Part shown: positions 1,320 to 24,696 of the stretch, piece after piece
How the letters are laid out: the number at the start of each line of letters is the position of its first letter
Numbering within the stretch: position 1 is the stretch's first letter
Assembly: GCA_910890315.1 (NCBI GenBank)
Contig: CAJVGD010000054.1
Coordinates: 1 to 29,863 of the forward strand
Direction: 5' to 3'
DNA: 29,863 nucleotides
Origin: Serendipita indica DSM 11827
Taxonomy: Eukaryota > Basidiomycota > Agaricomycetes > Sebacinales > Serendipitaceae
Made by a program: the position numbers and the translations under genes
Notes under the pieces: generated by a model
What the model was told of the DNA's origin: nothing
Databases searched by the model: none
Seen by the model: only the letters and a program-made list of their open reading frames with translations

Positions 1320-1389
1320 TAGTATGACAAGGAGAATGGGCCTTGTGATGGTGGCGACGAATGGTATCGAGGATTGAGCAGTTGGGTAG

Positions 1390-3280
1390 TCAAGGCGCTT
1401 GCTGAAGTGCACCGACTATAAGATTCTCGTAAGTATCCAACCATTCCCATAGGGAAGATGCAGTTGGACGACGGAAGGGATCGCGACTCCAGCACAACTC
1501 GAGGATATCCCACAAGGCGTCGATACCATCGACCGGGGGAGTTGTCAGATGAGGAAGAATCCGTGGTCGTTTGATGCGTGGTCGACGGGCAGGTGGCACC
1601 CGCAGCGAATGTCATGGAATATCTGTCCACGTCGATTATCATCACGCGATGAGCGTAAGGTACAACCGAGTAGATGAACTAGTACGCGTTAGTGCTGGTA
1701 CTCGGCAGATGGGTGCATTGTGAAGAAAGAAACGTACTTCGAATCCGATACAACCCGCAGCATATGCGTCCGTAGCCGTTGTCGGTTCCGACGGATCGTT
1801 GAGATCAACTAGCTCAGGAGCAAAGGTATCGCGGTGTGCCCGTATGCGGAGTCGTGGTATTGATCTCGCATCCATTCGACTTTCGTCACTGCTGTACCCG
1901 TCGCCAGAAGAAGACGAAGAAGAGTCGTCGACCACAACCAGAACCAGTCAAGGTCGCAGATCTTTGGCCTTCCATCGGCAGCGATAAGAACATTGGGCTA
2001 GGTATCGGGAATCAGATCGTGAGATGCAAAATGTGAGGCGGCCTACGGGTTTCATGTCTCCATGAACGATTTGCGGCGAATGAGAGTGCAAGTAAACAAG
2101 ACCACCGACCACGCCTTGCCACTACATAGGGATTAGCCCACGTTCATTCCATGGCAACGTTGCTCACTAGACGGTATCTTTCCAGTGGTGAAGGGGCGTG
2201 CTTGTGAAGATATTGCGCAGCATTGCCGTTTAGACACCACTGTGGATACTCAATAAGAACTTTCTGTTAGAGGATTGATTCACTCACTGGCGTAACAATG
2301 GCCCCGAATGGCCCGAACATTCGATCTTCCACGATACCATGTACCGGTAGGACGTTCGGATGTTGGAGAATCTTTCCAATCGTGACCTCGCGACGACGTC
2401 TCTGCATCCAGTTCAGATCTATTCTTGCGGATTGTCACCGACAGGTTGGGAATTTTGTCGTTGCGTGACCTTGACTCGAGCTCGTAGAAGCAAAGCACCT
2501 GAGCGGATCCAGGTGAGAATACGGTTATTGCTCTCGCTCGTGGATTTGGGAGATAGATTTGGCATTTTCGTATCCTGCTCGCGGTGAGCATCGACGTTAG
2601 TTTCCCGTTTCGTTGAATCTCGCCTTGCCGAGACCCTTTGTTTGACGTTGAACTGGGAAGAATGATCAGATATGCAACTAGTGTGGTCGTTGAAGAACAA
2701 ACCAGTTGGAGAAGAGATTCCACGTAGCCCGGCTTTGGTTGGCCATGAAGAAGCCGCTTGGTATCACGTGAACACTCGACCCCCGACTTTGAGCAAGAGG
2801 AGCAGTCGCCCGGAGAGTCGCACTTGGCCTGTATGTAGAAGGCAATGGTGGACATTTCTAATCAGCGCGATGAGGGACGCGCAACACGGGAAGCTTACTG
2901 ACCCCAAAGGACAGATTTGTCTCGGAGAGGATAGCGACGTTGGTGACCGGTTGACAGTGGAATCCCGGGACCGCCCTTGCCGTCTGATTGTTGCGTGTTG
3001 GGGCAGACATACTGATATCTTGAATATATGACATATATGTGGCAATTCAACGTACTGGCGAGAAGATTGTTAACATCAACTACATCCAACGAACCGTCTT
3101 CCAATGGCGAGCCCGTGATCCGCGAGCAGACGTGGCGAGACAGGATGCACGCATCACGTCTCTGAGAGTTTGAATGCGTTGTACACTTGATTTTGCTTGA
3201 GCGGCTACATGCTTCACATCAGGCCCAAGTCGAAGTCGGGTTCAAGACGCGACTCACCACTCGTCACACGCAGTCGACAT
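1390..3280 (-). pseudogene. kinase-fusion copy A: Zn2Cys6 clusters plus kinase, internally deleted
   Basis: Left-arm homologue of copy E. The first exon (3280-3258) encodes MSTACDEC and is split at the second cysteine by a GT-AG intron. The next exon continues RSSKIKC, but the fourth cysteine of this cluster is Arg. The second-cluster remnant (KCDSPGDCSSCSKSG near 2800-2840) is followed by 'GYVESLLQL', typical of a Zn2Cys6 linker. Compared with copy E, about 780 bp encoding the linker and the kinase N-lobe (glycine loop and VAIK lysine) are absent, with the junction near 2430-2440. Kinase pieces such as RRRREV, HPNVLPVHG and 'DPSEPTTATDAYAAGCIGFE' (1740-1800), and the C-terminal lobe (1390-1599), follow in several frames. 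Without the lysine strand it cannot encode an active kinase. Confidence 0.75.
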
Positions 3281-3779
3281 TCTTTGCCTTGTGATGATGC
3301 TTTGAATATTTTTGCACAACTAGATAAAACCTCGCCGAACCAGTTGCTTACCTGAGCGGGGGACAACGACGCGGTTCCATATCTACCCTTTTTAAGTGAC
3401 TTCGCCTGGTGGCAGTCAAGCCACGACCTCCTGACCTACTTTTGAATGAGGCTGGAACTTTGGGATCACCCGGAGTGATGCAGTGGCGATAGACTCGCAA
3501 ACCACCGTCCTTGCTTGTCTATGAATTATATTGTTCGAATATTTCTTACTAGCGTTGAGATACACGCAAGCGCGGGCCTGATCCCATCTTCGACCCGCCC
3601 ATCTCGACTGCCGGCCCGCAGAGGCGACGTTTCGACTATCAAGATTTTGGATATTCCATTTCTCTTTTTTATTTGACATCACTTCACTGGACCTCGGGCG
3701 TCGCATCGATATGGCATATAGTTATATAACCAGAATATGCTCAGATTCAGACTGCTAGATTGCACTACATTTTCCAGAC
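3281..3779. other. intergenic between finger gene and kinase copy A
   Basis: There is no convincing gene. The region must hold the promoter of copy A and the 3' end of the finger gene. Patches, such as the stretch around 3620-3640, match the equivalent right-arm gap (21413-21892), so it is part of the duplication but less conserved than the exons. Confidence 0.5.
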
Positions 3780-5228
3780 TCATTCCAAGCTAGAGGCTTG
3801 CTTCCGGACTCTTTTTCTGGTGCGCTCCACGCCATCTTCGTACTCGTCGCCATCGTCCTCCTCCGCCTTTCGCTTCCTCCCCGTCCTCTCCGCGTCGTAG
3901 TGCTCCCTGATTCGCTTCTCTACACTAAGGCATCAGCTCCGATTCCGTTTACGAAAGTCATCCAAGGACTTACGAATGCGATCTGGTTGGTCCTTTTTGC
4001 GCCCTCGAGAGATCCCAAAGTGCGCCTCTATCACATGGCGCCTGTACGAATCCCCCGTTGCGACCTCAATTCCACACGGTTCGCACTCCGTGTGGACCCA
4101 TCGCACGACGCCCGAGGCTGCAATCGCCCCCCGGATTCCGCATCGGCGCCTCCCTTTTGCGTCGACTGTAAATCCTTGGTCGACGGGGAAAACGACCTTG
4201 AAGGTGGACGTCCTGAAATGCTTTTGAGCCCTCTTGAGGTGCTCAAGGACCTCGATGGGATCCGCGTATCCCATCGAGTCTTTCTCTACGTATTGTTAGC
4301 AAGTGGATATTGTCCAAAAAACGTCACGTACCAAAATGCTTCTCCTCTACTCCATCTTTGGTGGCCTTGGAGGCCTTTCGGGAGGGCTTGCGAGGTTGGG
4401 CGACCTTTTTGCCTGGATGGCGAGGTCGGATGACCTTTTTACCTGGATGGCGAAGTCAGTGATTAGCGAGAAGAACGCAAATGAGGACATACCCTTGGCG
4501 GCGGAGCCGCTCTTGATGACTTTGTCACGGCTTGCCAAACTGGCGGAGCCGTGACTATGGTTGTGAAGTTTGACTCCGTCGGCAGGAAGGATCCCACCGA
4601 CGGAGACTGAGCCTTGGGAGGTTGCACCCTCTGTCCCAGAGGTCGACGCGCGTTCCGATTCAGGGGACGCTTTCGACCTCTTGTGCTCACCTGCATCGCT
4701 CTCATGAGCCAGCAGTTGAATAGGTCTGTATCGATCAGTATTAATCTGACCTTTCATGCATAGTTACGAACCTATCCTCGTCATCCTCAAACTCGGACTC
4801 CAGGTCCCCTTCGACTCCGACCGGCTCCGGTTCGTCCTCCAGCTCTGGCGCATCTGTGTCGCCAAACGCTGAGAGTCTATCCGAACGACCGTCAAGATCG
4901 CTCGGGCAGACCGAAAGCGTATCGGGCTCTGTTGATGGAGCGACGCTGACCGATTCGTCCCGTCTAATGCTGCAAGTCAGTGGATATTTAAAATGCTCAC
5001 AGAGCACCAACAGCGAATCCGCGTCTCCGGCAAGGGCCTCTTTGCCTTCCAAGCTGGTTGCGAAAGCGTCAGCGCCTATCGAAATCTGCGTGGCCTAACT
5101 CACTGTTTCTCCCAGTCGCTCCGCGTCCACCAGAGGCACTCTATAACCTCGCGGTCGTCTGCGGGTTCGGGGGTGGGATCCCTTCGCGGCTTCTCGATGA
5201 GGTCCTCGTCGAAATTATACGTGTCCAT
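3780..5228 (-). CDS. C2H2-finger nuclear protein, intact left-arm copy
   Basis: Six exons on the minus strand join in frame: 5228-5104, 5053-4772, 4725-4493, 4442-4332, 4285-3974 and 3919-3780, giving 401 codons (400 aa) to a TGA. Every intron is GT-AG and phases match. The product starts MDTYNFDEDL, has a strongly acidic stretch (about residues 105-135), a basic repeat GKKVIRPRHPGKK (about 214-226), a single C2H2-type finger with Cys318, Cys321, His334 and His339 (Cx2Cx12Hx4H), and a Lys/Arg-rich tail (GRKRKAEE, RKRVRKQ) that looks like a nuclear localisation signal. The finger and tail suggest a nuclear DNA- or RNA-binding protein; the target is unknown. I do not recognise the family. In exon 2 a stretch of about 31-37 bp (gtgagc to ttgcag or attag) resembles an intron, but reading through it keeps the downstream frame. 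A TATA box lies 115 bp upstream. Confidence 0.8.
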
Positions 5229-5342
5229 GGTTTATTCGTTTGCAGATCCCGGCTTTGTAGACGCGTTGGTGGGCAGCGACCAAAGGACGCGTCGGGGGGC
5301 GAGGTCAAGGTGCGAGGCCGGCCAGAAACTGACTCATGGCCT

Positions 5343-5349
5343 CTTTATA
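5343..5349 (-). promoter_or_regulatory. TATA box of the left finger gene
   Basis: TATAAAG on the minus strand, about 115 bp upstream of the ATG at 5228. The right-arm copy has the same motif at almost the same distance (19893-19899, 114 bp), within a well-conserved upstream block. Confidence 0.55.
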
Positions 5350-5762
5350 ATGACGCGCTAAAGCGGGGTTTGAACTCGTTTCGCGAGACACGTGATCCAA
5401 GCCACCTGCTGAGTCGCACCGATTGGCAGATGCCTTTGCCTGGAGGTACCAGGCGCGTGTTGGATGGATGGTATCTATATCCGAGAGTTTCAGCTACTCA
5501 GATAGAGAGGATAAAAGCAAGTTTGTGGGCTGGTCACCGTTGGCTCCGGACGTGGCTCAACGCGTCCTTTCCACCACATCAGGGCGCAGACGCGCACTCC
5601 CTCTGAAGGGCGTGTAGTCCCATCTAGAGCCTGTTATGTATACGTTTGACGCGTTTACATGTTTTCTTATGGCCTTTCGTGAGCAGGCACCTGGTGGACT
5701 CGTGCTGTTGATCGCTGACCACAAGGAACCCCCTGATCCTTTTTATATAATCTATTTCTGCT

Positions 5763-5885
5763 CTAAATCGCGTAATGCGATGAGAAGACCGCATAAAATT
5801 GGCCCGCCAAACGGTTGCATAAAGGATCACATTCTGCCACATTTTTTGGAGCCGCCGCTCGTTTCTCAACACCGCTCGCATCCAT
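5763..5885 (-). other. possible small ORF or upstream exon (40 codons)
   Basis: An ATG-initiated reading frame on the minus strand contains 'APKNVAECDPLCNRLAGQ'. The right arm has a matching open frame at 19352-19462 (plus) with 'APKNVAEWDPLCNRLAGQ', but its first codon is ATA. The two DNA copies are similar throughout, so protein-level conservation is not proven. It could be a small gene, a 5' exon of the finger gene's transcript, or chance. Confidence 0.3.
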
Positions 5886-5975
5886 TGGTCTCTTTACAGT
5901 CTAATTTACCTCTTCGTCTCTTATCAAGCTCTAACATGGTTGTTTTGTGGTGTTCTAACTAGAGGACCATGCTCA

Positions 5976-6592: not shown

Positions 6593-8793
6593 TTAGGTCT
6601 GGCACTCGAGCGCACTGACAATCACGTCTTCGTAACTGGCCAACAACTCGCGCAGACGCAATGCCATCGGGCGAGAAGAAGGATCACGACGCCAGCACCA
6701 CTCCAGTATATCCCATAGAGTACTCACACCGTCGTCCGGGGTCGACAATGGACTAGTTTTGGGTGAGTGTGAGGTCGTCGGTCGAGAAGCGGGAGGGATG
6801 CCGCGACGAATATCATGGAAGATTTGACCCTGAAGATTGTGTGGACGATTTGCGTAGGGCACCTTTGAGTAGATGAACTGTGCCATTGGTCAAGCATCAT
6901 GGAGCGGAGTTTCAGCGGAAGACGACGTACCTCGAACCCGATACACCCGACTGCGTACACGTCTGCCGCTGTAGTAGGTTTAGAAGGACGGTTTAGATCA
7001 ACCTGTTCGGGAGCGAGGTATCGAGGTGTTCCAGAATGCGGCGTTGTGGTATTGATTTTACGCATCCAGGACTGATTTTCGTCGCTAGCGTATCCGTCGC
7101 TCGAGAATGAGGTCTCATCGACCAAGATTCGTGCAAGCCCGAGGTCGCAAATCATCGGCCTTCCATCTTTGGCAATCAGAACATTGGGCTAGAGGTCGGC
7201 GGTCAGCGAAGTCAGGGGAGTACCTGAGGAAAGACCCACCGGTTTCATGTCTCCGTGTACAATTTGCGGTGAATGCGAATGTAGATGAGCAAGTCCATCC
7301 ACCACACCTCGCCACTGAGTGACCGTTAGCATGCACCTTCTTTTATCCCATCAGTACTCACCAGACGATATCTTTCCAGTGGCGAAAGATTGTACTCGTG
7401 GACCAATTGCGCAGCATTGCCATTTGGACACCACTATGGACGCTCAGTACGGCTTTTCAATCTAGAAAAGCATCTCACTAGTGTGATGATTCCGCCAAAC
7501 GGGCCAAACTCCTCGCCCTCGACAATGCCGTATACCGGGAGGATATTCGGATGGTGAATACTCATTCCTGTCGTGACTTCACGACATCTTCTCTGGAGCC
7601 AAGTCAGCTCAACCCCCTACAATACTTCATGACGCACCCGCCGTATCGAACGAGGAGACCCGACGGCTCGAACGATCTTTATGGCGACCTACGCGGTGCT
7701 CGGTCAGTGGGAGTCGACCCACAACGAAGATACATACGTCTTTTTCTTCATCCCCGTCCTTGTAGATACCTTGATAGACGGCCGAATATGGACCATCGTA
7801 GACTTTGTGCAATGAGCGCAACCGCACATAACCCGTGAGGTTTCTCTCTCGAATTGTCCACGGAGAAGAGTTGGCAGGCCTCGAATTGTCAGGGACGCTA
7901 CTGACGGAAGAGTGGCGCAAGTTCTTGTGGGCGCCGAGAGAAGGAAAAGATGAAGGGTGAGTTGAATAGTCGAGATTAACCTCTTTTAGTGATACCGGGC
8001 GAGCGGGAGCATCCACGTCTTGAGCCAGATACCCGAAAGCCTTTTGACTACCTTCGAGGTCGACGTCTACGCTCTCGAAAAGACTTGATGTCGGGCTCTG
8101 TGGTTGAATAGGCGTCTGACGAGAGGCAGACGACGCGTGGTCCGTGATTGATCGCGGGGAACCGCCAGCTGGTGTAAATGGAGAGGACACTGGATGAAGA
8201 TTGCGCGGTGAGGAAACTCGAGGGCCGCTCAGTGAGTACTTGATGGCTCTCCGTAGTTTCACCACCGGACGAATAAGCCCGTTGATTAGGCGTTGTAGAC
8301 GAGTCAGGCGAGCGACTGTTTGCTCAATGTCGTTTCCATCGTCGTCGTTCACCCTAGGGTCCGCGGCGCCAGCAAAATATTGGATCTGAGACTGGTGGAT
8401 CAGTGGAGATCAGCTCATGAGAAACGAAGAGAGCGGTGCAAGTAGAAACTGACCTGATGAGCAGGATATTGGCTTGTTGACTGTATGGTGCCGGGAGCAA
8501 GTATGCTGATGTTGTCAGTATAATGCCAGCGCAAGACGTAATTGCAATTTACCGTTGATTGGCCACTTCGTGCGCGGATGAAAGCGTGCGGTGCCAACTG
8601 TGGATTGGTAGCTCCAAAGGTCGTAGAACAGGCCTGGCGGGTCTGAATGCAAGTATTGCATCTCTCGGGGGTTCTATTTCGTATACACTCGATATTGCGC
8701 GCGTAGCTGCATGAGTCGAGTGTTAGCCAAAATCGACGGCAGGTACAAGTGAGGGGCTCACCACGCTTCGCAGGCCATCTTCATCGTCGACAT
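6593..8793 (-). CDS. Zn2Cys6-kinase fusion protein, copy B (open start to stop)
   Basis: Nine exons on the minus strand join in frame to 606 codons: 8793-8762, 8706-8454, 8391-7738, 7688-7638, 7616-7479, 7433-7362, 7314-7240, 7188-6931 and 6877-6593. All introns are GT-AG; that at 7637-7617 is only 21 nt. Residues 8, 11, 18, 27, 30 and 37 are cysteines spaced Cx2Cx6Cx8Cx2Cx6C, a fungal Zn2Cys6-type cluster. A Leu/Arg-rich helix (VARLTRLQRL, about 118-127) and a Ser/Pro-rich linker follow. The kinase domain runs from about 270 to 600: glycine-loop remnant YDGPYSAVYQG, Lys317 (VAIK), Glu343, HGDMKP (Asp422), Asn427, DLG (Asp440), APE (484-486) and DVYAVG. All catalytic residues are present; the family resembles fungal tyrosine-kinase-like kinases. 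An intron-like 47-bp stretch after codon 79 (gtaaat to catcag) is read through here; removing it would break the frame. The second Zn cluster of sister copies is absent. Confidence 0.75.
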
Positions 8794-9813: not shown

Positions 9814-12452
9814 CTAGTATACTCCACATTCGAGCGCATCGACGATCACGTCCTCGTACTCGACCAACCATTTGCGCAAGAGCAATGCAGTCGGGCGAGA
9901 CCGTGGCTCACGACTCCAGCACGACTCTAGAATACTCCAAAGAATATCGATGCCATCGGCAGAGGATGACGCGAGTGCATCATCAGCCAAAGAAGAGGAC
10001 ATGTCTGGTCGAGACGCGGGTGGGACGCCAGTCCGAATGTCGTGGAATATTTGTCCTGGAGGTTATGCTCTCGATGAGCATAAGGTACAATAGATGAACT
10101 AGGGTCGTATCAGCTATGCTATCCAGCATATTGCGATGACAACGCACCTCGAATCAATGCACGCTACCGCATATGCATCCGTAGCCGTGGTTGGCTGAGA
10201 TGGACGATTCAGTCGACCTGCTCGGGGGCAAGATACCGCGCGTCCCCGTGCATGCGCACTCGTAGTGTTGATTCCACCCATCCGCCCAATGTTCATAACC
10301 CCTGCACTCGAGGGGAGACGATGAGGTTGAGAGCCGTCGACGATGAGTCGCGCAAGACCAAGGTCGCAGATCATCGGTCGTCCGTCATCTGCAATAAGAA
10401 CGTTGGGCTAAACATCCTAGTATGAGCAATCTGGCACAGAACGTGAAAGCAACGTACGGGTTTCATATCTCCATGTACGATTTGCGGCTCATGCGGGAAT
10501 GGAAGTGAACCAGGCCATCCACAACACCTCGCCACTGTACTGCTGTTAGCCGACACTCGTCCCTGGTCGCAACAGTACTCACCAATCGATATCTTTCGAG
10601 TGGCGAGAGCTTGTAGTTCTGGAGATATTGAACAGCATTGCCGTTTGAGCACCACTGTTTATATTCAATAAACGACGTTAGATTAAATTACCAACTCACC
10701 GGTGTGACGATTGCGCCAAAGGGTCAAACATTCGACCTTCCACGGCCCCATAGACGGGAAGAATATTTGGATGCCGAACTTTATCCAGTAATAACCTCGC
10801 GACGACGTCTCTGAAACCAGTTTAGGCCGACCTCGCCGTTTCGGTGCCACATACCCGCCGTATAGCATAAGCTTAGGGCCAACTGGTTTTATCACTTTGA
10901 TGGCGACCTATGTAAATTGAATGAGTGTACTTTGTGACGACGAAGAATGTACGCGCGTCTTCTTCGCCATATTCGTCCTTGTAGATGCCTCGATAGACAG
11001 CCGAATATGGGCCGTCATAGATTTTGCTGGATCGATATAGATGTGTGTTTCCAGTAAGATTCAATACACGAGGCGGGCATGAGAAGAAGCCACCCTGAAG
11101 AGAATCGGCCCACGCGTCGCCTGTGATTGGGAGCGACTCAAGGCCATCCAGTGTTGCATACAGGGATATTGAGGGAGAGGGGTCGCTGGAAAGTGGTCGT
11201 TGACCTGCTGGCGAGTCACGTTCGACTGGATGGGACGAGCTGGCGCATACTTTGATTGTTTCGGTGCGAGGTGAATGGCTGACAATGTCGGCATCGTATA
11301 TATGAATTGAGCATGAGGTGTAGCATCAATTATAGCGTCTGGAGAGAGCGGTGTCGGTGACTCCGGATTGCCGTCGAGGTCATGTGCGCGAACGCAGAGG
11401 GTCTGAGGGGAAATTGGAGGGTTGTAGTGCGATGTATCTACAGGATTCGCCCGATGGCATTCCACATGATGATGATTTTCAGACGGTGTTGAACTGGCCT
11501 TTGAGATTGTCGACAATCCCCCCTTTCGCCTCCCATTTTCTGTTCTTGAAACAGACGTCCCATTTTTTTGGCAGAGTCGAGGATGAAAACCTCCAAGGCA
11601 CCTGGCCGCTGGATGGCAGTTCCAGATAGTGAAAACGCCGCCATCAACCAAGCAATCAGACAAGCGAAAATACCCTTGGCTGGAACAGCTACGGGCTTCG
11701 GAGTGTGCGGATTTTGCGTCTGTGGCCTTCCCAACGGCGGAGCCGACAAGGATGCGCCTTGAGGTGCTCGTCTCGGAGGGTGTTTGCCTAGCATTGGGCT
11801 GGTGAAAATGGTCAAATATTTGCCAACATGGCTATCGAAGGACGAACAGTATCAACAAAGATTCCAGGTAGGTCAATTTAGTCTCCAGAGCTTCGGTATC
11901 GTTTCGATGGCCCCAAGGCGTGACTTCATATCACGCGTGCACTCGACACCTGCTGTGGAACAGTTCGAGCAGTTGCTTGAACAGTTGCATTTGACCTGGA
12001 TATGGAAGAACGGTCGTCGTCCGCGGTTAGCACGTTCAATGACAGCACATGTAACATGGAGAATCACCAACCTTGAGAGTACGACATCTGTCACAAGCAG
12101 ACGCATGCCGACGCGGGTTCCTCCTCTCAGTGCTGGCCGCGATCTCGTCGACAGAATGGTCGGGTGTTGGCGCGCGCATGCTGTGATCATCAGAGTTTGT
12201 CGGTAGACGAACAAAATAGACACATACTCTTCGTCCTCGACGTCTATGACACTCAAAGAGATGTCTGCCCATCGTTGATGTCCTGCCTGGGAGGATGAGA
12301 AGCATATGCGGCGATCCAAGGTGCACAGATTGCATCCTTCAGAGCCTTTAGTTTGTTTGCACTTGGCTTTATGCTTGCGGCTACATGTCCGAGTAGAGCC
12401 AAGGTCGAAAGGATCCAGGTTGGGCTCACCACTCGACGCTGGCTGCCGACAT
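9814..12452 (-). pseudogene. kinase-fusion copy C: two Zn2Cys6 clusters plus kinase, frames broken
   Basis: Exon 1 (12452-12430, 23 nt) and the exon from 12380 encode the first cluster, RKHKAKC with GCNLC and C after six residues; the first cysteine is Ser. A phase-2 intron (gtatgt to cacag) leads to the second cluster, ACDRCRTLK, a GT-AG intron, then VKCNCSSNCSNC, with perfect Cx2Cx6Cx5Cx2Cx6C spacing (about 12100-11950). 'YLESLL' follows in another frame. The linker (about 11800-11080) is Pro/Ser-rich. The kinase part begins NLTGNTHLYRSSKIYDGPYS near 11060-11010, with VAIKVIKPVG, HPNILPVYG and DLGLAR, but the frame shifts after ITG and before the APE region, near 10230. There is a 23-nt GT-AG candidate intron at 10854-10832. 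It ends at a TAG in the same place as copy B. Confidence 0.75.
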
Positions 12453-13244: not shown

Positions 13245-15884
13245 TTATGCTCGGCGCTCGAGTGCATCGATAATCACGTCCTCGTCCTGCGCCAACCACT
13301 CGCACAAGTCCGATGCACTCGGTCGACGACAAGGATCGCGACTCCAGCACAACTCCAGCACATCCCAGAGGATCGTGATCCCACAGACCTCGGACGACGC
13401 CACGGTGGGATTGGTAGAGGACGGAGTTGCAATATCAGGTCTACGTGCGGGTGGAACACCGTTGTGAATGTCGTGAAAGATTTGCCATTGCAGATTGTGT
13501 TTACGGTGCGCATAGGGTACCGCCGAGTAGATAAGCTAGTGTGTGTCAGCGCTGGGACGTACAGTACCAAAGGACTAGGAAAAGGGAGATAATGTGCGAA
13601 CAACGTACCTCGTACCCAATACACCCTACTGCGTACACATCCGTAGCCATGGTTGGTCTCGACGGATTGTCCGGGTCGACCTGTTCTGGTGCGAGATAAC
13701 GCGGTGTACCCGTATGTGCGCTCGTAGTATTGATCCCAACCATCCATTCCCAGCATCCATTGCTAAGGACGCCATTGAATGAAGACGGTCGCCGATATTC
13801 CTCGACTCGTGCAAGTCCGAGGTCGCAGATCATAGGTCGTCCATCGTCAGCGATGAGAATATTAGGCTACAAAGCAATAATGAGTTGGTTACTTGAGCGT
13901 AGTCACAAGTTGGCCTACAGGTTTCATATCTCCGTGGACGATCTGCGGTACGTGCGCATGCAGATATGCAAGCCCATCCACAACTCCCTTCCACTATTCG
14001 ATTATTAGCCTATCTGAGCCCTTTCGTCGCAGTGCTTCTCACCAGGCGGTACCTCTCAGCCGGCAAAGTGTCGTGGGTGTACAGATATTGCACAGCGCTA
14101 CCATTTGGACACCACTACGAATGCTCAGTTACACGTCCAATCAGAGTGGTGACTCACTGGAGTAACGATTCCACCAAAGGGACCAAACTCTTTGCCTTCG
14201 GCAATACCATAAACGGGGAGGATATTAGGGTGACGGAGAATCGTCCCAGTAATGACTTCTCGACGACGTCTCTGCACTAGGTTAGCTCGGCCGTTGTCAT
14301 TGCTCCTTTCATTGCCCGCCGTATCGAGTGTATGGGACCGATTGACTTGACTACTTTGATAGCGACCTACGTAGGTATTAATGGAGTTTATTTTGGTCAT
14401 GGAGTATCACGTACGAGCTCTTTGCGAAATCCATCATTGTAAACGCCAGGATAAACAGTCGAGTATGGACCGTCGTGAGCACATGCGACAGATATAGGTG
14501 CACATGACCGGTGAGATTTCTTTCTGTACCGCTCACTGAGTATGAGCAACCGGGATCCGAGTTGACTGTGGTGTGCTTGGCGATGAAGAATGGGAGCGGC
14601 ACGAGCTTTTCTGGCCGACAGAGAATGAGCGATGGAGGACCGATGGATGATTCAAGATGTGGTTGATCTCCACAATGACAGCACCGCGAAGTGTCTGAGG
14701 ACGAGGGGTGGATGCGCGATGGTAATCAGAAAAAACGACATTTATTGTCCAGATGTACTTGCCGAATTCTGCAGTTGGATAGTATCCTGAGGACGCAGGT
14801 AGCTTGTTCGTGATGGGTGGCCCGCCGTTGAGGGTTGGGATTGGTTATACGTCTAGGCGGAGACAAACGGGGATCGGATCCGACAGCAAGGAAGAAAGTG
14901 CATCTGCCACGCATCGGTCTTTATCAGTCTCTTGAACATCGCCACAGGACGATGAAGCTTGGCGATCATGTCACATGTGACGAATCAGGCGCGTATTCTG
15001 TTGGCTTCCTTGGCCCAGTTCTCTTTGAGACTCAATATCATTTTAGAACTCTGAATGGCGCTTGAGGCTGGCAGCTCCATCAGAGAGTAAAGGGTGCTCA
15101 ACTTCATGCTGAAAGGACCATAAAAGCCTTGAATGGTCCATTAGAGATGGTATTGTATTCGTCGACTCCCTCGGAGGATGGAGCAGGCAACCATTTCCAC
15201 TTCTCACACGGGCGAAAGACCGACCGCGGCGGGAGAACGAGTCCGCGATAGGAACGAGATTTTCGGTGATCTACACCATCCGAAAATCTCCTGTTTCGAG
15301 ACAAACTGAAGATTATCAGCGACGGCTTAGCGTGATTGAAACGAACTGGTTGCAAAGAATCTTTCGACTTTGTCCCCAGGATGAATATATTGTTTTGTGA
15401 CTACCCACAAGGTTGGTTCGTTGCTAAGAGCGTAGAGCGTACTCAGGAATGGGATGATTTAAACAAGGGTCTGGGAGTGCGCTTGGTCCTATGTCCAAAG
15501 TGACAATGTGCACGATCATCTCATTGAATCCAGTATGATAACCAAATAGGACTTGCCTTGTCCGCGCAAATAACGGACCTCGTCGGCTTCTTTTGCGCGT
15601 GATATATGAAACCACACTACTATCGATTAGTAAATGACAGAAAACCTTTATTCTATTTACCGTTGATTATTGGCACCGTCCGCAATGGACGAACGCTCTG
15701 CCACCCTACATGTGCCCTCGACAGTCTGAGACAGACCTGTGATCCCAAAGTACATGCATCGCATATCATGAGCTTATACTCCGGAACACTTATTTTACTG
15801 GTGGTGGCTACGCGGCCAGGTAAAAAGGCCGGAGTCGACGCGCGTTCAAAGGGACACTCACCACTCATCACAGACGGCGCTCAT
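13245..15884 (-). pseudogene. kinase-fusion copy D, nearly intact kinase domain
   Basis: Exon 1 (15884-15862) encodes MSAVCDEC, the same 23-nt length as in A, C and E. The next exon carries codons for TSKI, C and later CDACTLGSQVC, so all six cysteine codons exist, but at least two indels separate them (one looks like AAA shortened to AA in the KIKC motif). No second cluster could be confirmed at 15300-15600. The kinase part starts near 14520 (ERNLTGHVHLY), has one 1-nt loss before DGPYSTVY, then reads well: VAIKVVKSIG, RRRREV, HPNILPVYG, VHGDMKP, DLGLAR, TPRYLAPEQV, DVYAVGCIGYE, ending with RDPCRRPSASDL and a TAA at 13245. The C-lobe exons are fully open. The short intron after 'SIRR' has gc where sister copies have gt. 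If the few indels are sequencing errors, this is a working gene. Confidence 0.7.
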
Positions 15885-16254
15885 CATCAGCTCGGCAAGT
15901 CTGCTGGGATCGTCTTGGATGAGAGAGAAACTGAAAGCGCAGAAGGAGAAGAGGGTGGATGAGATCCATGACCGATCCTGGAGTTTAAATGGCCACAGAG
16001 AGAGGGGTACAGGTGGTAATCGTGAACTATCTTCTCATCACAGACAGCGCGAGTTTAAATATGGCCAGAGGTACGGGTGGTAATCATGAACTGCAAACCG
16101 CTTGGCGCGATACCCATTGGTTCGCCAGCTGCACAGCCACTCTGAAACCTGGACATGACCGATCATAATTGGTATGCTGGATCTCGTGCATCCATTCCGA
16201 AATTTGCGTCCACATCCATTCAACCACTCGTATCGCCGCTTCTTCAACAAGGCA
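15885..16254. other. intergenic between enolase and copy D
   Basis: No gene is recognised. The segment is short and includes a local duplication (15981-16092) and a second partial copy of copy D's first-exon sequence near 16035-16052. Confidence 0.45.
15981..16092. repeat. imperfect direct repeat, two units of about 45 bp
   Basis: Both units begin gagtttaaat and continue through a ggtacaggtggtaat or ggtacgggtggtaat core to 'tgaact'. They span about 15981-16028 and 16051-16092. Between them sits 'ctcatcacagacagcgc', which nearly repeats the start of copy D's first exon at 15866-15880. A small local duplication is the simplest reading. Confidence 0.65.
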
Positions 16255-17994
<1,740 letters not shown>

Positions 17995-19254: not shown

Positions 19255-19892
19255 CAGAGCATGGGGGTGGCTCTATGATCAGAGCACCGCCGAAAGATCG
19301 CACAAGAGTTCGAAGAGAGAGAAAGAGGTGGGATAGACCGTAAACAGGCCAATAGGTGCGAGCGCCGTCGAAACGCCAGCGCTGGCTCCAAAAAATGTGG
19401 CAGAATGGGATCCTTTATGCAACCGTCTGGCAGGCCAATATTCTGCGGCCATGTCATCATAGGACGCAGTATAAAGCATGAATAGATCATATAAAGCAGG
19501 TTCTACTGGATTCCCTTCGGTCAGCGATCAACAGCCGCGAGTGAACAAGCGTGCTCGCTCACAAAGGGCCATACGAGTACATGTAAACGCGTCAAACGTA
19601 TACATAATAGGCTCTAGATGAGACTACACGCCCTTCAGAGGGAGTGCGCGTCTGCGCCCTGATGTGGTGGAAAGGACGCGTTGAGCCACGTCCGGAGCCA
19701 ACGGTGACCAGCCCACAAACTTGCCTTTATCTGCCTCTATCTGAGTAGCTGAAACTCTCGGAGGTAGATACCATCCATCCAACACGCGCCTGGTACTTCC
19801 AGGCAAAGGCATCTGCCAATCGGTGCGACCTAGCAGGTGGCTTGGATCACGTGTCTCGCGAAACGAGTTCAAACCCCGCTTTAGCGCGTCAT

Positions 19893-19899
19893 TATAAAG
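19893..19899 (+). promoter_or_regulatory. TATA box of the right finger gene
   Basis: TATAAAG 114 bp upstream of the ATG at 20013, matching the left-arm motif at 5343-5349. Confidence 0.55.
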
Positions 19900-20012
19900 A
19901 GGCCACGAGTCACGTTCTGGCCGGCCTCGCACTTGACCTCGCCCCCCGACGCGTCCTTTGGTCGCTGCCCACCAACGCGTCTACAAAGCCAGGATCTGAA
20001 AACGAATCAACC

Positions 20013-21412
20013 ATGGACACGTATAATTTCGATGAGGACCTCATCGAGGTGCCAAAAGGATCCCACGAACCCGCAGACGACCGCGAGGTTATAGAGTGTC
20101 TCTGGTGGACGCGGAGCGACTGGGAGAAACAGTGAGTTAGGCCAAGCAGATTTCGATAGGCGCTGGCGCTTTTCGCAACCAGCTTGGAAGGCACAGAGTC
20201 CCTTGCCGGAGATTCGAACCCTTTGTTCGTCCCTTGTGAATGTTGCGAATGTCTACTAACTTGCTGCATTAGATGGGACGATTCGGTCAGCGTCGTTCCA
20301 TCAACGGAGCCAGACAGACTTTCATTGTTTGGCGGTCGCAGATACGCGCGCCAGAGCTGGAGGACGAACCAGCACCGTTCGGAGTCGAAGGGACCTGGAG
20401 TCCGAATTTGAGGATGACGAGGATAGGTTCGTAACTCTGCATGAATGGTCTGATTGATACTGATTGATACAGACCTATTCAACTGCTGGCTCATGAGAGC
20501 GACGCAGGTGAGGCCAGGAAGTCGAAAGCGTCGCCAGACTCGAGACGCGCGTCGACGTCTGGGACAGAGGGAATGAGCTCGCTCACCTCAGGCTCTGTCG
20601 GAAGGAAGATTCCTGCCGGCGGAAAAACTCTTAATATCCATAGTCACGGCTCCATCAGTTCAAGCGGCCGTGACAAACCTATCAAGAGCGGCTCCGCCGC
20701 CAAGGGTATGTCCTCCTTCACCTTTTTCTCGCTAATCACTGACCTCGCCATCTAGGTAAAAAGGTCATCCGACCTCGCCATCCAGGCAAAAAGGTTGCTC
20801 AACCTCGCAAGCCCTCCCGAAAGGCCTCCAAGGCCACCGAAGATGGAGTGGAGGAGAAGCATTTTGGTACGTCACGTCCTTTGGACAACATCCACTTGCT
20901 AACAATACGTAGAGAAAGACTCGATGGGATACGCGGATCCCATCGAGGTCCTTGAGCACCTCAAGAGGGCTCAAAAGCTTTTCAAGACGTCGGCATTCAA
21001 GGTCGTTTTCCCCGTCGACCAAGGATTCACGGTTGACGAAAAGGGGAAGCGCCGGTGCGGAATCCGGGGTGCAATTGCAGCCTCGGGCCTCGCGATGGGT
21101 CGCACCGACTGCGAACCATGCGGAATCGAGGTCGCAACAGGAGAGTCGTACCGGCGCCACGTGCTTGAGGCGCACTTTGGGATCCCACGGGGCAGAAGAA
21201 AAGAGGACCAACAGGAACGACTCAGTGAGTCTTTGAGAGCTTTATCGACGAAATTGGAGCTAACCTCGCCTATAGAAAAGCGAATAGGGGAGCATTACGA
21301 CGCGGAGAGCAGGGGGAGGAAACGAAAGGCGGAAGACGACAACGATGAGTACGAAGATGGCGAGCGACGACAAAGAAAAAGGGTCAAGAAGCAAGCCTCT
21401 AGCTTGGAATGA
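20013..21412 (+). pseudogene. C2H2-finger nuclear protein, right-arm copy with broken exon 2
   Basis: Exons correspond one to one with the left copy: 20013-20131, 20183-20426, 20473-20705, 20756-20866, 20913-21224 and 21276-21412. Exons 3, 4 and 5 have exactly the left-copy lengths (233, 111, 312 nt) and stay open, including the finger (CEPCGIEVATGESY then RRH and EAH) and the Lys/Arg-rich tail GRKRKAEDD with KRVKKQ. Exon 2 is 244 rather than 282 nt, missing part of the acidic segment and shifting frame, so a full-length product is not predicted. An alternative start inside exon 3 could still give the finger half. The start codon, promoter and all splice sites are kept, so it may be transcribed. 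Confidence 0.7.
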
Positions 21413-21892
21413 TTCTGGAGGGTGAAATCATGTAAAATATAATCTCATAGTCTAAATCCGAGCATGTTCTGGTCGAATGATTATATGCCACACTTGATGC
21501 GGCGCCGAGGTCAGAGGTGATGTTGAATCCAAATATAAATGAAGCATCCACCGTCATAATGGCAAAGCGTCGCCTCTGAGCGAGTGTAGATGAGATGGGT
21601 CGGTCGAAGATGGAAAGGCCACATCGGACGTGTATCTCGCTCGCAAGAAAGGCGCAAATTATTCAAGCAATATTATACAGGCGAACACTGCCGTTTGCGA
21701 GTTAGTCCCCGACCAAACTGAATGGAGGCGGTGCTTCAGTCACTCACCTGGCTAAGTCCTTTTCTCTCTCGCCTTTAAAGGCACCTATAGCTGATACGGA
21801 GCCGCGTCGTGTCCCCGCGCAGGGCAAGCGACTACTTCGGCAGATTTGCCTAGTGGTACAAGAAGATTCAGAGCATCATTACAAGGCAAAGA
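21413..21892. other. intergenic between right finger gene and copy E
   Basis: No gene is recognised. It is equivalent to 3281-3779 in the left arm, with patchy similarity, and should contain the copy E promoter. Confidence 0.5.
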
Positions 21893-24696
21893 ATGTCGAG
21901 TGCGTGTGACGAGTGGTGAGTAGTCTCTTGGACCCGACGTCGACTTGGCCCTGATGTGAAGCATGTAGCCGCTCAAGCAAAATCAAGTGTACAACGTATT
22001 CAAACTCTCAGAGATGTGATACATGCATCCTGTCTCACCACGTCTGCTCGTGGACCCCCAATGTCACGGGCCCGCAATCAACAGACGGCTCGTTGGATAT
22101 AGTTGAGGTCGACAATATCCAGTATGTGCAAATATTCATTTCTAGCTGACATATACTCACTATATCAGCATGTCTACCCCAACGCACAACCGTCGTGACA
22201 GCAAGGACGGTCCTGTTCCCACTCAACCGGTCAGCCAACGTCTATATCCTTCTTCTTACGAGAGATTTCGTACTCTCAAGGTCTGTGATTACCAGCGTTG
22301 CACCTCCGAGGCGTTGCTCTGCGATGTCCACCGTTGCTTTCGACATATAGGTCAAGTGCGACTCTCTGGACGACTGCTCCTCTTGCTCAAAGTCGGGGTC
22401 CGAGTGCTTGCGTGATACTAGCGGTTTCTCCATGGCCAACCGAAGCAAGGCTACATGGAATCTCTTCTCCAACCGGTCTGTTCTTCGACGCCTCTACTAG
22501 TTGCATATCTGATCACTCTCGCCAGCTCAATGTCAAAAAGGTGTCTCAGCAAGGCGAGATTCAACGAAACGGGAAACCGTCGTCGATGCCCGCCGTAAGA
22601 AGGATACGAAATCGCCAAATCTGTCCCCAAACCCACGAGCGAGAGCAATAACCGTATTCTCGCCTGGATCCGCTCAGGTGCTTCGCTTTTACGAGCTCGA
22701 GTCAAGGTCATGCAACGACAAAGTTCCCAACCTGTCGGTGAAATGGGTACCTTGGTGATCAACCTGGCCTCCTCCGGAAACGGATAGGCAATCCATCTCG
22801 ACGAGACCAAAACGGCTACGCCGCAGGCTTTCATCGAAAAGCTCATCCAGCATTCCCCGCCCTTCTTCGACGGCTGATCCTTTGAACAGCACTGGGTGCA
22901 TTACTACTCGAGCATCTATCAATGATCACACGGAGTACCAAACGGCTATCCCTGTTCCTTAGTCCCACTCCCACCCATGGGATCGCACCCAGAGTCAAGA
23001 GTCCCGCGAACCCGACTGTGGCGGTCATTTCCAATCTCAGAACCGGCTCGTTGTTGACGATATTCTCGACTCCACAATTCCCGCGTCACATAGGTTCACC
23101 ACCTTCAGCGTCGAACATCAACGTTGCTGGCCTTTGGTCGAGGCTGACTTGCCTGTTTCGTCATATCCAGTGGATCCTCGTCCGTCACTTTACCAGCATC
23201 CTTTTCCGGCGTTTCAATCCCTCTCAATTCCTCGGTGTGCTCCAAGCACTCGTTCCTCGGCTCTTGATCACGATGTTTCGGCCCCAATCCCGATGAAATC
23301 GTCCCATTTCACTCTCAAGGGCGGGATTTGACGAGCATCGTGCATGTCTGACCGATCGCAAAGTCTACGATGGCCTTATTCAGCGGTATATCAAGGTGTC
23401 CGATGATGGGCACCAGATGGAGGACGTACGTGTTGCCACGTCGAATAGAAACGTACTGAACAAACGACAGGTTGCCATCAAAGTCATCAAGGCAGTCGGT
23501 CCTAGGCATTCCATTCAGAGGGTAGGTAGTCCCGAATCTGCAAGTAGATCTGAACTGGATGCAGAGACGTCGTCGCGAGGTCACGATTGGAAAGATTCTC
23601 CAACATCCGAACGTCCTACCGGTACATGGTATCGTGGAAGATCGAATGTTCGGGCCATTCGGGGCCATTGTTACGCCAGTGAGTGAATCCTCTAACAGAA
23701 AGTTCTTATTGAGTATCCACAGGTGTCTAAACGGCAATGCTGCGCAATATCTTCACAAGCACGCCCTTCACCACTGGAAAGATACCGTCTAGTGAGCAAC
23801 GTTGCCATGGAATGAACGTGGGCTAATCCTATGTAGTGGCAAGGCGTGGTCGGTGGTCTTGTTTACTTACTCTCATTCGCCGCAAATCGTTCATGGAGAC
23901 ATGAAACCCGTAGGCCGCCTCACATTTTGCATCTCACGATCTGATTCCATGCTCCTCCAATGTTCTTATCGCTGCCGATGGACGGCCAATGATCTGCGAC
24001 CTTGGACTGGTTCGAGTTGTGGTCGACGACCTTCTTCGTCTTCTTCTGGCGATGGGTACAGCAGTGACGAAAGTCGGGAATGGATGCGTGAGATCAACCA
24101 CGACTCCGCATACGGGTACACCGCGGTACCTTTGCTCCTGAGCTAGTTGATCTCAACGATCCATCGGAACCGACAACGGCTACGGACGTATATGCTGCGG
24201 GTTGTATCGGATTCGAGGTACTTTTTTTTCAATGCACTCCATCGGCCGAGTACCAGCACTAACCCGGACTAGTTCATCTACTCGGTTGTCACCCTACGCT
24301 CATCGTGAGGATAATCGACGGGGTCAAATTTTTCATGACATTCGCTGCGGGTGCCACCTGCCGTCGACCACGCATCACAACGACCACGGATTCTCCTCGT
24401 CCGACATATTACCCTCGGTCGATGGTATCGACGCCTTGTGGAATATCCTCGAGTTGTGCTGGAGTCGCGATCCTCTTCATCGTCCGACCGCATCTTCCCT
24501 GTACGAGTGGTTGGACACTGCCGAAAACCTTATAGTTGATGCGCTTCAGCAAGCGCCTGACTACCCAACTACTCAATTTCTTGACGCCATTCGCCGCCGT
24601 CGCCACCATCACAAGGCTCATTCCGCTGCCATTCTCTCAGTCATCCTCCAAAACCTCGCTCGAAGGACCCAGGATAATCTCGATTTTAATTTATGA
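21893..24696 (+). pseudogene. kinase-fusion copy E: two Zn2Cys6 clusters plus kinase, frames broken
   Basis: Exon 1 (21893-21915) and exon 2 (from 21969) give a perfect first Zn2Cys6 cluster with cysteines at residues 5, 8, 15, 24, 27 and 34 (MSSACDEC, RSSKIKC, QRCDTC). A 47-nt phase-2 intron (gtatgt to atatcag) joins in frame to the second cluster exon, which reads YERFRTLK where sister copy C has CDRCRTLK, so its first two cysteines are Tyr and Phe; after a GT-AG intron it continues VKCDSLDDCSSCSKSG. The frame then breaks. A linker (22740-23330) absent from copy A follows, then KVYDG (one base short of KVYDGPYS), an intron, VAIKVIKAVG, HPNVLPVHG, VHGDMKP and DLGLVR, with a further shift before the APE region (near 24130). 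The C-lobe (24270-24696) is open and carries a longer tail (DYPTTQFLDAIRRRRHHH) than copies B, C and D. The finger gene lies 480 bp upstream on the same strand. Confidence 0.75.

Follow-up and report, generated by a model that had tools for sequence, protein, structure and literature searches.

In the 29,863 nucleotides of Serendipita indica DNA analysed here (the window), a duplicated gene family in which a Zn2Cys6 cluster is predicted to be fused to a protein kinase is well supported by the sequences of its five copies, termed A to E. Each gene would encode an N-terminal Zn2Cys6 cluster, a Ser/Thr/Pro-rich linker (measured in copy B) and a C-terminal eukaryotic protein kinase. The interpretation we favor, and consider probable, is that the cluster serves as an address tag aiming the kinase, with that of copy B acting as a docking or pairing module. 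What is said below of zinc binding, DNA binding, location and activity of the proteins we infer. A Zn2Cys6 head is normally found on transcription factors. If a kinase bears such a factor's DNA-binding head, promoter occupancy would be coupled directly to phosphorylation in one protein, and the family could represent a kinase steered to particular genes, with the DNA-reading part looking worn in the intact copy B.

Gene model and kinase domain of copy B

Copy B is on the minus strand (8793-6593), and the preferred model, rebuilt by eye and then by script, has ten exons and a product of 571 amino acids, with nine introns, all GT-AG and 45-72 nt long (Table 1). The first-pass annotation had given nine exons and 606 codons. 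That model could be rebuilt exactly, with a single terminal stop, with every residue number as given and with recovery of K317, E343, D422, N427 and D440. It differs from the ten-exon model in three respects: intron 2 is kept, exon 4 begins 6 nt earlier and there is one intron of 21 nt. The 21-nt intron was rejected, as in spliced alignment the intron at that residue is 44 nt in C and 43 nt in E against 45 nt in the preferred model of B (in D the alignment used another junction, and this part is missing from A). Ten exons and 571 amino acids are preferred because of these C and E introns, and the change from 21 to 45 nt costs eight residues. Intron 2 (72 nt) is open in frame and exons 2 and 3 are possibly continuous; with two readings each of intron 2 and of the 6-nt shift of the exon 4 acceptor, the product of copy B ranges from 571 to 597 amino acids. 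The linker (residues 71-262 scored) is 29 percent Ser, Thr or Pro.

In the 571-residue model the catalytic residues are K291, E309, D388, N393 and D406. The earlier description of the kinase as catalytically complete holds for this Lys, Glu, Asp, Asn, Asp set as predicted from the codons, and less well for the motifs around it, HGD standing in place of HRD and DLG in place of DFG. Pfam gives Pkinase (PF00069) 119 bits, where the gathering score is 31.7, and PK_Tyr_Ser-Thr (PF07714) 83 bits; of the domains that the earlier annotation proposed to look for by HMM, these two were matched and Zn_clus (PF00172) was not. The fungal_trans middle domain has no match in copy B at E<=1 in Pfam, and the 11 kinase-type NCBIfam models that match it all score below their own cut-offs. 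Among the best 60 of 1491 PDB matches are the Map kinase kinase-like protein 9gmp, bacterial PknB, RIPK1-3 and plant CTR1, with RIPK and CTR1 being kinases that we take to be TKL.

Table 1. Positions in the window of the copy B exons and of the zinc clusters and kinase regions of the other copies
Feature	Position	Strand	Remarks
Copy B exon 1	8762..8793	-	From the start Met to the second Cys, whose codon is interrupted (TG|C) by a phase 2 intron; aligned with C, E and A
Copy B exon 2	8553..8706	-	Remainder of Cys cluster 1
Copy B exon 3	8454..8480	-	May run on from exon 2; both readings open
Copy B exon 4	7738..8385	-	Ser/Thr/Pro-rich linker and start of kinase N-lobe; no in-frame Met
Copy B exon 5	7638..7688	-	VAIK lysine
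Copy B exon 6	7479..7592	-	Helix C glutamate
Copy B exon 7	7362..7433	-	Presumably the kinase hinge/helix D region
Copy B exon 8	7240..7314	-	HGDMKP catalytic loop
Copy B exon 9	6931..7188	-	Catalytic Asn, DLG, GTPRYLAPE
Copy B exon 10	6593..6877	-	C-lobe and stop
Copy E cluster 1	21893..22121	+	Exons 21893-21915 and 21969-22121 (by eye); six Cys; Zn_clus 22.2 bits; best PDB match GAL4
Copy E cluster 2, second half	22351..22407	+	4 of 6 Cys, the first two lost upstream; Zn_clus 23.9 bits for this remnant joined to its degenerate first half
Copy C cluster 1	12228..12452	-	Exons 12452-12430 and 12380-12228 (by eye); 5 of 6 Cys; Zn_clus 15.5 bits, below cut-off
Copy C cluster 2	11939..12095	-	Six Cys across an intron; Zn_clus 31.4 bits
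Copy A cluster 1	3104..3280	-	5 of 6 Cys
Copy A cluster 2, second half	2772..2822	-	
Copy D cluster 1 trace	15716..15891	-	Eroded: in-frame stop and frame break
Copy E kinase	23304..24555	+	11 frame breaks in alignment
Copy C kinase	9820..11082	-	10 frame breaks in alignment
Copy A kinase remainder	1396..2433	-	Without N-lobe; 7 frame breaks in alignment, one in a stretch without true counterpart
Copy D kinase	13248..14539	-	1 frame break in alignment

Zinc clusters and their predicted joining to the kinases

The spacing Cx2Cx6Cx8Cx2Cx6C is present at residues 8-37 of copy B, as first described, where the Zn2Cys6 spacing in general is Cx2Cx6Cx5-12Cx2Cx6-8C. Pfam finds no Zn_clus there, either with the whole protein (E<=1) or with fragments (E<=10), and in the PDB the cluster has a weak match to GAL4 (E 0.76). 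It is classed as Zn2Cys6 because it is homologous to the clusters of E and C, and on no other ground. Scored with a cluster model from which B was left out, its peptide gives 20.9 bits, the best of 999 shuffles giving 7.2. With the Zn_clus gathering score at 21 bits, three of the four pieces tried from C and E pass, namely both clusters of E and the second of C, and C cluster 1 fails. When its intron 1 is removed at the codon used in B, E cluster 1 reads CDECRSSKIKC-TTYSNSQRC-DTC-ILSHHVC and has GAL4 as its best PDB match (E 0.0017); the best for C cluster 2 is LAC9 (E 0.052). The full set of six cysteines is present in cluster 1 of B and E and in cluster 2 of C, and the pattern is broken in D.

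A second cluster, complete in C and about 200 bases downstream of the first, together with the half-clusters in E and A, points to a tandem double cluster in the ancestor, and the sequences thus suggest that the family began with two. The counterpart of cluster 2 in copy B, at -0.1 bits, is not above shuffle level (best of 20 shuffles 6.1), nor is there in D any trace of cluster 2 above that level. Just behind cluster 2 of copy C, a stretch in another frame reads EALETKLTYLESLL. A coiled coil follows many zinc clusters, and the stretch resembles one.

The predicted joining of cluster to kinase is supported at the DNA level. The window has four kinase copies besides B, three of them (A, C and D) on the minus strand and one, E, on the plus strand. 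E cluster-1 DNA (exon 1, intron 1 and exon 2), used alone as a single-sequence query, gives five hits across the window at E<=1 and no more: E itself and the fronts of the A, B, C and D kinases. The corresponding DNA of C finds the same five, D being the weakest (E 5.8e-4). The cluster-1 module is accordingly upstream of, and on the same strand as, all five kinase copies and, at E<=1, is absent from the rest of the window, so that the architecture proposed earlier for A, C, D and E can be traced in each, in eroded form in D, whose cluster exon contains a stop codon as well as a frame break. Even so, the D cluster scores 41.9 bits with a four-copy model lacking D, where the best of 20 shuffled windows reaches 5.9. 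Exon 1, intron 1 and exon 2 could be aligned across B, C, E and A. With what appears to be a Zn2Cys6-type N-terminus and a kinase in one gene model in five copies, the suggestion of a family, rather than of a chance fusion, stands.

A chance cysteine pattern was also considered and rejected. The half motif Cx5-9Cx2Cx6-8C occurs six times in the six-frame translation, in each case upstream of kinase copy A, B, C or E, as against a mean of 0.65 (maximum 3) in 40 dinucleotide shuffles, and the shuffled-window and left-out-model scores and the module search likewise speak against chance. Identity among B, C and E extends to five of the six Cys columns and to 1 of 28 other columns, a contrast for which the hypergeometric P of 1.3e-4 is flattering, the Cys columns having been picked from the same four sequences.

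Methionines in the copy B model are at residues 1, 4 and 6, and then there are none until 314. The N-lobe of B hence needs an upstream start, and the cluster exon supplies one.

At the window edge, 310-787 on the plus strand contains a sixth, distant kinase-like fragment with HGD followed by ENIMIDDHGNPKIGF. Its similarity to copy B is weak (563-787, E 0.96), ORF 310-651 has no Pfam match at E<=1, and the fragment was left out of the count of five modules in five copies, its upstream side lying beyond the window. A Pfam search of ten other ORFs of the 42 gave one match, to an enolase piece. Comparison of the window DNA with plasmids gave no match, nothing was found in it by Rfam at gathering scores, and of two pattern matches of the copy B protein to viral contigs none was confirmed by tblastn.

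State of the family and proposed role of the clusters

The kinase region of B has six introns. All six are at the same residues in C, and five are shared by D, with the sixth assigned to another junction in the alignment. In E four are exact, one is displaced by a residue and one was unrecovered, the aligner having set a doubtful 38-nt intron 17 residues earlier. Copy A, which lacks the N-lobe, shares four. Of ten kinase pairs, dS is finite in seven, where dN/dS ranges from 0.12 to 0.34, though in six of the seven dS (1.8-2.3) is close to saturation; the other three pairs are saturated. A and E, the youngest pair, have 0.34. The sequences show that the kinase is under purifying selection and that the presumptive zinc-binding cysteines are preserved.

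Frame breaks complicate the picture. There is none in the kinase alignment of B, and those in A, C, D and E (Table 1) are of uncertain origin and may reflect either decay or technical or assembly error. One possibility, an unlikely one in our estimation but deserving of attention, is that the family is decaying, with A, C, D and E being pseudogenes, B a recently silent survivor and the fusion without present function. Besides the breaks themselves, the stop in the cluster exon of D fits this, as does the absence from A of about 0.8 kb present in E, the N-lobe included. So does the character of the 1-nt indels between the arms carrying A and E: 25 of 70 are in runs of one base where the background is 42 percent, and with no enrichment in such runs one common mark of sequencing error is absent. 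Against decay, copy B is fully open, dN/dS is well below 1 and the 1241 kinase codons aligned from A, C, D and E contain no in-frame stop, a count from which the aligner may have skipped some sites at frame breaks; of random substitutions in copy B codons, about 4 percent would be expected to create a stop. In addition, an enolase gene in the same window (16274-17835, minus strand) has 12 apparent frame breaks and two stops in a spliced alignment to an approximate yeast enolase sequence, the count being rough as that alignment is visibly wrong in places. It is either a damaged copy or an assembly error, and since it too has frame breaks, those in the kinase copies may be technical.

The arms just mentioned belong to a large inverted duplication (1334-5932 and 19305-24623) with 81-91 percent identity between its arms, on which copies A and E lie along with other sequence. 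It includes the paired ORFs 3933-4274 (minus) and 20924-21412 (plus), which share a Cys/His-containing segment; the latter has no Pfam match at E<=1.

A separate question is what the clusters recognize. Some of the basic residues between Cys2 and Cys3 face or contact DNA in the GAL4 structure. Three of the four basic residues of GAL4 are kept there in E cluster 1 (RSSKIK) and C cluster 2 (RTLKVK), which makes promoter tethering a reasonable proposal for the family. Copy B has YARNIE versus RLKKLK in GAL4, with one of the four positions kept and the others changed from Arg to Tyr, Lys to Asn and Lys to Glu. That copy B itself is a DNA-bound nuclear kinase, its cluster reading promoter DNA today, is therefore doubtful, notwithstanding the complete Cys spacing, the adjoining relatives with canonical clusters and a linker composition in keeping with it. 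YARNIE contrasts with the RSSKIK of E as well as with GAL4, and a second cluster is not discernible above shuffle level. The description of B as DNA-tethered in the first-pass annotation consequently fares poorly, with Zn_clus unmatched by Pfam and three of the four GAL4 basic positions changed; tethering to DNA is plausible, judged by the clusters, for the family and weakest for B, with its single basic residue of the four and no second cluster.

The favored interpretation accommodates this difference. In the ancestor, two tandem clusters would have held the kinase at promoters, leading to phosphorylation of transcription proteins there. In copy B the six cysteines would keep the fold with the DNA-reading basic residues mostly gone, and with that loss its cluster is more likely a docking or pairing module, dependent on zinc, through which the kinase is aimed or controlled. 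A bolder extension, offered tentatively and with the balance of probability against it, is that a double DNA-reading Zn2Cys6 head was fused to a kinase in the ancestor and that duplicates kept different clusters (cluster 1 in B and E, cluster 2 in C), the tandem kinases thereby being re-aimed at different DNA sites or partners.

Least probable, and in our view quite improbable, is that two adjoining genes, one for a fragment of a zinc-cluster protein and one for a kinase, are joined by the model alone, as the uncertainty of introns 2 and 3 of copy B and the invisibility of its cluster to Pfam might allow. Against it are the module upstream of kinases A-E in the same orientation, the lack of a Met for the N-lobe in B and (by eye) in the open stretch leading into the kinase of C, and the intron after the cluster exon, which falls at the same codon in B, C, E and A (phases by eye).

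Relation to known proteins

No description of a fusion of zinc cluster and kinase was found among the matches listed in a search of the open-access literature, most subscription papers being outside its scope. As far as the accessible portions of their text go, nothing on such a pairing is in PMC5030230, PMC11878562, PMC9815663, PMC10515909, PMC9239057, PMC6985275 or PMC2151957. Proteins of this type may well be listed in fungal protein databases already. The accessible text of a survey of fungal kinases reports expansion of TKL kinases in Laccaria and has Fungal_trans among domains seen once in fungal kinases (PMC2838846); zinc-cluster terms are absent from that text, figures not included. 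FslK kinases are described as expanded in Agaricomycetes in a paper whose accessible part makes no mention of zinc (PMC3937382). The family in the window is like TKL and FslK kinases, to the extent these partial sources describe them, in being an expanded set of fungal kinases and in RIPK and CTR1 being among the best 60 of 1491 PDB matches of copy B, its membership in either group being conjectural.

Zinc clusters paired with another DNA-binding domain are known from dual-specificity fungal transcription factors, and in one studied family of these one specificity was lost after duplication (PMC5415576, accessible text, from which the word 'kinase' is absent). As described there, the likeness to the family in the window is in the combination of a zinc cluster with a second domain, and the difference is that their second domain is DNA-binding (PMC5415576).

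Set beside Zn2Cys6 transcription factors generally, the family has the same Cys spacing, two clusters (E cluster 1 and C cluster 2) above the Pfam cut-off and PDB matches to GAL4 and LAC9. It departs from them in having a kinase after the cluster, in the absence of a fungal_trans match in B and, again in B, in the loss of three of the four basic residues. From the other side, copy B resembles PF00069 and PF07714 kinases in its 119 and 83 bits and in its catalytic Lys, Glu, Asp, Asn and Asp, and is unlike the usual members of both in having HGD, DLG and an N-terminal zinc cluster.
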